From assembly GCA_021608145.1 (NCBI GenBank), contig JAKIHM010000004.1:1-64000 (forward strand): a stretch of 64,000 bases of DNA. Reading direction: 5' to 3'. A model generated the notes under the pieces. The model had not been told where the DNA came from. It saw nothing but the letters and a program-made list of their open reading frames with translations, and searched no databases. Numbering within the stretch: position 1 is the stretch's first letter; the number at the start of each line of letters is the position of its first letter. Of this stretch, positions 14,094 to 15,280 are shown piece by piece. This stretch comes from Thermovorax subterraneus. GTDB taxonomy: Bacteria > Bacillota > Thermosediminibacteria > Thermosediminibacterales > Thermosediminibacteraceae. Both the position numbers and the translations under genes were made by a program.

Positions 14094-14864
14094 TTGATTT
14101 GCGGCAAAACTATCCGCGAATTTCGCAAAAAGAGAAACATGTCGTTAAAGGAACTTGCCGAAAAGGCAAACCTTTCCGTATCTTACCTTTGTGAAATAGA
14201 GCGCGGCAAGAAACAGCCATCGCTCGAGGTGATCGAAAAACTAGCAGCCGCTTTAAATATATCGAAAGATGCCCTCTTCGATGAACATTCTCCAAAAGGC
14301 AGCGGCACAACTTCAACGGGCGAAAGGATAAGCATCCTGCGCCGCGAAAGGGGGCTTTCCCTTCCGGAACTTGCGCAAAAGGCGGGCATTTCGGCCACGT
14401 ATCTTTGTCAGATTGAAAACGGGAACGTACTTCCTTCTTTAGCCACATTGAAAGCCATCGCCCGGGCTCTAAACGTCAGTCCCCAGGATTTTCTGTCCTC
14501 GTCCCACGTAGGTTACAAAATCAAGAAAATTCGCCAGGAGCGCGGCATCACTCAGGCAGAGCTGGCAAAAAAAGCAGGAGTTTCGCCGGGACTCATTGGA
14601 CAAATCGAAAGCGGCAAAGTAGAACCTTCTATAAAGACTCTCGAAAAAATAGCTAAGGCCCTTTCTCTTTCGCCCTGCTATTTCGTGAGCGACGATGATG
14701 ACATAACTTCCCTTTTAAGGCCAATGAACCCGGAACTAAAGCAGCTTTTTGCAGACCCGAAAGTGAAGTCCTTTTTGGAGATGGTAGCCGATTGCACTCC
14801 AGAAGAGTTCATGTTTATAATGAAGTTTATACAGCTTTACAAGGAGCATAAGGATAAAGTCTAA
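14094..14864 (+). CDS. Regulator with three tandem XRE-type HTH domains
   Basis: A 256-residue protein in which three complete XRE/Cro-type helix-turn-helix units follow each other at about residues 5-60, 77-133 and 141-196. Each shows the LAxKAxxSxxYLxxIExGxxxPSL pattern. A short linker (residues 63-76) separates units one and two. The remaining 60 residues form a helical C-terminal tail without a recognised ligand domain. The start is a TTG at 14094 with GAGGTG 7 bases upstream. It runs into, and ends base-to-base with, the TGA-containing gene on the other strand. Multiple HTH units in one chain suggest binding to a composite or repeated operator. Target unknown. Confidence 0.85.
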   Translation: MICGKTIREFRKKRNMSLKELAEKANLSVSYLCEIERGKKQPSLEVIEKLAAALNISKDALFDEHSPKGSGTTSTGERISILRRERGLSLPELAQKAGISATYLCQIENGNVLPSLATLKAIARALNVSPQDFLSSSHVGYKIKKIRQERGITQAELAKKAGVSPGLIGQIESGKVEPSIKTLEKIAKALSLSPCYFVSDDDDITSLLRPMNPELKQLFADPKVKSFLEMVADCTPEEFMFIMKFIQLYKEHKDKV

Positions 14865-15149
14865 TTAATATCCTCCGGCTACGGCAAGGTTTTTGAACAT
14901 CCCAAAACCAGAAAGGTAAATTTTAAGGCCATCTCTTGTATCGACAAAGGGGCTGACGTACACCTTTATCCCATCGACCTCGTATACTTCGTAGCCGTTA
15001 GCATCAGATGGGGCACCTACGTACACGGTAGGCAGATACCTGCAACCTGCTCACCCTCCGCCGTAGCGTTCCAATTTTACCGTCACAGCATCGGCATTTT
15101 TCTGCCGAATGAAATTTTTTGCCCTTTCATCTATCTGTATTTTGACCAT
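14865..15149 (-). CDS. Probable selenoprotein (HesB-like / CC-Se motif family), in-frame TGA read as Sec
   Basis: The frame starts at an ATG with GGAGGTG 6 bases upstream and runs 32 codons to a TGA (15051-15053). It then continues open for 61 codons to TAA at 14865. Together they give a 94-residue protein. The first part (MVKIQIDERAKNFIRQ) resembles A-type HesB/IscA starts. The second part (YVGAPSD, YEVYEVDGIKVYVSP, KNLAVAGGY) has a coherent beta-rich pattern typical of the CC/Se-motif (seleno)proteins. The site reads GGG-Sec-AGC, where relatives have Cys. A hairpin just after the TGA could serve as SECIS. The alternative is a broken gene with a premature stop. Sec machinery was not seen in this window. 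Function is probably redox or metal/Fe-S related (family inference). Confidence 0.75.
15027..15047 (-). other. Candidate SECIS hairpin next to the in-frame TGA
   Basis: Three bases after the TGA, GGU pairs with ACC and GCAG with CUGC around a GUAU loop, with a small internal loop between the two stems. The loop lies about 15 bases from the TGA, near the short end of the range for bacterial SECIS elements. Confidence 0.5.
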
Positions 15150-15280
15150 TTTTTTCACCTCCAACCTGATTTTTATTATACTAAATAATTTTTTCGCTGT
15201 CAATAAGTGAACCTTAATTTTTTTAAACGTCCCTAATAGCATTATCCCCCGAGCCAGCTAAGTATAATCTGCAATAAATA

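Follow-up and report, generated by a model that had tools for sequence, protein, structure and literature searches.

A probable selenocysteine codon in a CC/Se motif family gene of Thermovorax subterraneus, with a tandem-UGA paralogue in the same genome

The A-type iron–sulfur carriers IscA, SufA and ErpA have three conserved cysteines, including a C-terminal Cys-x-Cys. Among selenoproteins, the HesB-like family TIGR01911 (Zhang et al. 2006, PMC1794560) is assigned the motif UxGP in a 2026 review (PMC13188914), and Table 1 of that review also lists NCBIfam family NF041239, the 'CC/Se motif family (seleno)protein', as 'predicted in Moorella thermoacetica' with motif CxxU and one Sec. The gene considered here lies on the minus strand at 14865–15149 of the 64,000-nucleotide stretch of Thermovorax subterraneus DNA that was analysed (the window), and its product is a further member of this already catalogued family. 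With the in-frame TGA translated as U, the joined 94-residue product matches NF041239 over residues 2–92 at 99.6 bits (E 7.8e-29), far above the curated cut-off of 40 bits, and like the family it is small and single-domain, with its Sec at the CC/Se site. The motif is U-A-G-C (UxxC) in the window protein versus CxxU in the review, and nothing points to a departure from the family.

The reading frame is as an earlier note on this DNA had described it: ATG at 15149, 32 codons, TGA at 15051–15053, 61 further codons, and a TAA stop at 14865–14867. The product reads MVKIQIDERAKNFIRQKNADAVTVKLERYGGGUAGCRYLPTVYVGAPSDANGYEVYEVDGIKVYVSPFVDTRDGLKIYLSGFGMFKNLAVAGGY, in which the context of U33 is GGGU33-A-G-C36. 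The strong ribosome site claimed for the start is present as the Shine-Dalgarno sequence GGAGGTGA at 15155–15162 (minus strand), conserved in orthologues. Directly upstream of it, at 15175–15203 on the same strand, stands a promoter with 12 of 12 consensus positions (TTGACA-N17-TATAAT), which is conserved in orthologues of the order. Together these two signals place the start at ATG 15149 rather than at the upstream in-frame ATG 15242.

We put at roughly 96 per cent the probability that this gene of an anaerobic thermophile encodes a functional 94-residue selenoprotein of the CC/Se family with a HesB/IscA fold, its UGA at 15051–15053 being read as selenocysteine by SelB through a SECIS element. 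In the mechanism proposed, a hairpin downstream of the UGA would recruit SelB with Sec-tRNA(Sec), the complex would decode the codon as selenocysteine, and the outcome would be the full-length 94-residue protein; the gene would escape ordinary stop-codon rules because its internal stop codon is read as selenocysteine. Insertion by SelB at this codon is strongly supported, given the full-length conserved frame, the exchange of Sec and Cys among relatives, the covarying hairpin, the complete selenocysteine machinery, and the gene being absent or broken in those relatives within the order that lack selA.

The earlier note had called the protein HesB-like, which stands for the fold and fails for the classical family. 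An AlphaFold model built from 27 family members has a pLDDT of 90.5, and its best PDB matches are SufA and IscA (Foldseek probability 1.00, E 2.1e-5 to 1.1e-4, the former to SufA 2d2a), so that the window protein is predicted to have the HesB/IscA fold that it would share with the A-type carriers. Only fold comparison gave such matches; a PDB sequence search with the family profile returned no real match. Likeness to the carriers at the profile level is weak: the TIGR00049, SufA, IscA and PF01521 profiles all score below their own cut-offs (17.5 bits against 58.8 for TIGR00049, 14 bits against 26.3 for PF01521). The protein also has no cysteine after C36, and thus no C-terminal Cys-x-Cys, which counts against a classical Fe–S carrier role. 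Proteins of TIGR01911 presumably have the same general fold and carry Sec in a comparable loop. Membership of that family was nevertheless rejected, since the window protein gives no match to TIGR01911 at E<=1 and lacks UxGP, although some relatives (L029, L033 and L041, with UCGP) have the motif and 7 of the 27 relatives match the profile weakly (best E 0.011).

The stem-loop that had been proposed as a bacterial SECIS element is a conserved, covarying hairpin, but it does not lie directly after the TGA: it begins 17 nt past the codon. Its core, GCCUAC-CGUGUAC-GUAGGU, occupies 15015–15033 (minus strand), with the apical loop at 15021–15027, 23 nt after the TGA. In an alignment of 23 Sec-form members the 6-bp stem (columns 21–26 and 34–39) is paired in 97.8 per cent of cells and contains two covarying pairs in which both partners have changed; sliding the register gives nothing comparable, and RNAalifold recovers the same helix unprompted. 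Silent positions within the hairpin are frozen as well, with Pro+7 encoded by CCT and Val+9 by GTG in 22 of 22 sequences each, both four-fold degenerate sites, and with C as the third base of residue +8 in 21 of 22. Pro+14, outside the hairpin and equally invariant as a residue, uses CCG, CCA, CCT and CCC 7, 6, 5 and 4 times.

The bacterial SECIS model of the review (PMC13188914) specifies an apical loop of 3–9 nt with G in the first two positions, an upper stem of 4–16 bp, a UGA–loop spacing of 16–37 nt and an MFE of −7.5 or lower. The window hairpin agrees with it in loop G (CGUGUAC), stem (6 bp), spacing (23 nt) and energy of the 46-nt region (−15.6), the core hairpin by itself having an MFE of only −6.0. 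The case for the hairpin is comparative. The folding energy of the window sequence by itself lies within chance (z −1.49, with 19 of 200 shuffles as good), and its minimum-energy fold adopts another register around the same apical loop. Rfam SECIS_1 had no match in the genome itself, nor in the controls for that search, which makes its silence uninformative, and all Rfam families run against the locus returned nothing useful. Compensatory changes and frozen silent positions make a convincing case, at the level of aligned sequences, that 15015–15033 would act as the SECIS element.

The genome (2.45 Mb in 44 contigs, complete by its estimate) contains all of selA, selB, selC and selD, for which the earlier note had suggested looking. 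The first three lie in a row in one cluster on a single contig, C42 (selA 624 bits, selB 390 bits, selC 76.9 bits), and ARAGORN identifies selC there as tRNA-SeC with anticodon TCA. The fourth, selD (396 bits, G000:C33:55723-56646, L019 and L068), carries a single in-frame TGA, within the motif SSGUAAK, and is itself a selenoprotein gene. Within the order, the intact window gene occurs in 14 of 14 genomes with selA and in 0 of 8 without it (Fisher P 3e-6, an optimistic value that ignores shared ancestry). One of the genomes without selA (G009) retains a copy in pieces lying in different frames (L046, G009:C31), which is decay after loss of selenocysteine use. The order offers a natural experiment: relatives without selA have no copy of the gene or a broken one.

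These observations bear on the possibility that a near-cognate tRNA inserts some other residue at the TGA, or that the codon is plainly read through, with selenium playing no part. UGA read-through is known in some genes, but here a complete selenocysteine system with a UCA tRNA-Sec, a covarying SECIS and the lack of any intact copy in the order's genomes without selA all speak for selenium, as does the residue found at the TGA position in distant relatives. The TGA aligns at the NF041239 motif position with a cysteine of L045, L048, L064 and L065, as had been claimed, and these distant members have Cys-Cys at the site; across the family the motif is U-A-G-C in the order and U-C or C-C elsewhere. 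Decoding without selenium is accordingly very improbable.

Selenocysteine insertion is likewise favored over damage to a Cys-type gene, be it through a nonsense mutation or through an error in sequencing. Seen in one genome only, an in-frame stop could at first be taken for such damage, but the same TGA is kept in orthologues within the order and beyond, in more than 20 independent genomes, and this conservation refutes both versions. Members of NF041239 above the cut-off were found in 24 of 61 relatives, almost all of them carrying a single TGA at this same position, and TGA is present in 22 of 22 aligned Sec-form relatives. The orthologue is present in a close relative, Fervidicola ferrireducens. 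Against seven relatives dN/dS is ∼0.02–0.20 in each half of the coding sequence wherever computable, and on these ratios both halves are judged to be under strong purifying selection. A single profile spanning the joined protein, together with such ratios on both sides of the TGA, also excludes a chance open frame. The covariation of the hairpin, and the quite different look of the truly broken copy in G009, leave a pseudogene with next to no probability. The equally negligible reading as two short genes, a stub of 32–63 residues and a 53-residue ORF starting at GTG (14865–15026), was rejected: both ORFs exist mechanically, but a single profile spans the joined product, homologues align along its full length and so to both halves rather than to one only, and the codons between the TGA and the GTG are conserved too. 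Short matches (20–22 residues) from Ideonella, Burkholderiales and Streptomyces were set aside as probably due to chance.

The window gene thus adds a well-supported selenoprotein, with a clean comparative SECIS, to a family whose function is known by inference only. A redox or soft-metal/sulfur-binding role seems most likely for the protein. Sec33 and Cys36 (U-x-x-C) may form a redox couple or serve as a soft-metal/sulfur ligand in the loop that binds metal in IscA proteins, and, in the modeled fold, the UxxC arrangement could form a selenenylsulfide; the loop around U33 is modeled with the lowest confidence of any block (mean pLDDT 77).

The NF041239 search also uncovered another member of the family in this genome, outside the window, with two TGAs (from G000:C10:37478 on; L053/L133, with the gene at about 2001–2290 of L053). 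Its TGAs are adjacent (...GUUNAFYAPSGL...), stand where distant members of the family have Cys-Cys, and are kept in 12 genes of 11 genomes (L053, L054–L063 and L089); profile comparison relates the paralogue to the window family at 98.8 per cent probability (E 1e-16). This sister gene is rarer than the window type. Downstream of the TGA pair there is one hairpin, whose 8-bp stem closes an apical loop GGUC and has five pairs that covary, a covariation that 0 of 500 shuffles reach; the hairpin lies 21 nt from the second UGA and 24 nt from the first. Both adjacent UGAs are probably read as selenocysteine under this one downstream SECIS.

Consecutive Sec-Sec (GUGUU) has been described in the algal protein PDI_e (PMC7539508), which has consecutive UGA codons as the paralogue does. 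PDI_e is a eukaryotic PDI-like protein, whereas the paralogue is bacterial and HesB-like, with one in-frame hairpin downstream. The algal case was the sole report of consecutive Sec in the literature searched, which held no bacterial one, and the table of 119 prokaryotic selenoprotein families in the review (PMC13188914) contains no UU motif. If the reading is correct, a bacterial protein with tandem Sec-Sec would be new relative to that literature, and the sister gene would make testable whether a single hairpin can serve two neighboring UGAs and in what way SelB engages again once the first Sec is in place. Some copies of the paralogue have TGA as their terminal stop too. In seven paralogue loci the gene just upstream encodes an aldehyde ferredoxin oxidoreductase, and in six there is a gene for an iron-hydrogenase-type protein nearby.

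Around the window gene, conservation of the promoter across the order reaches past the hexamers (CATTGACAGCGAAAA). A genome search with the extended pattern (TTGACAGCG..TATAAT), made in search of a regulon signal, gave only two further sites at 0–1 mismatches, the first preceding a predicted 4Fe-4S membrane protein and the second an aromatic-amino-acid gene cluster, and no regulon is claimed. Upstream of the distant orthologues L029 and L033, a GGGGTA/TACCCC-type sequence with a partial dyad takes the place of the order's promoter; its resemblance to a CsoR-type operator hints at possible metal or thiol control. Gene order is conserved among close relatives, though this is mostly a matter of vertical descent. 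From our own reading of the sequences, the upstream neighbor is a mannitol-1-phosphate dehydrogenase gene, and the downstream neighbors are a convergent XRE regulator, a thioredoxin and a zinc/manganese-type ABC transporter. The convergent XRE-type regulator (14094–14864) has helix-turn-helix-like repeats, and its end abuts the stop codon of the selenoprotein gene, an adjacency that is kept in the order.
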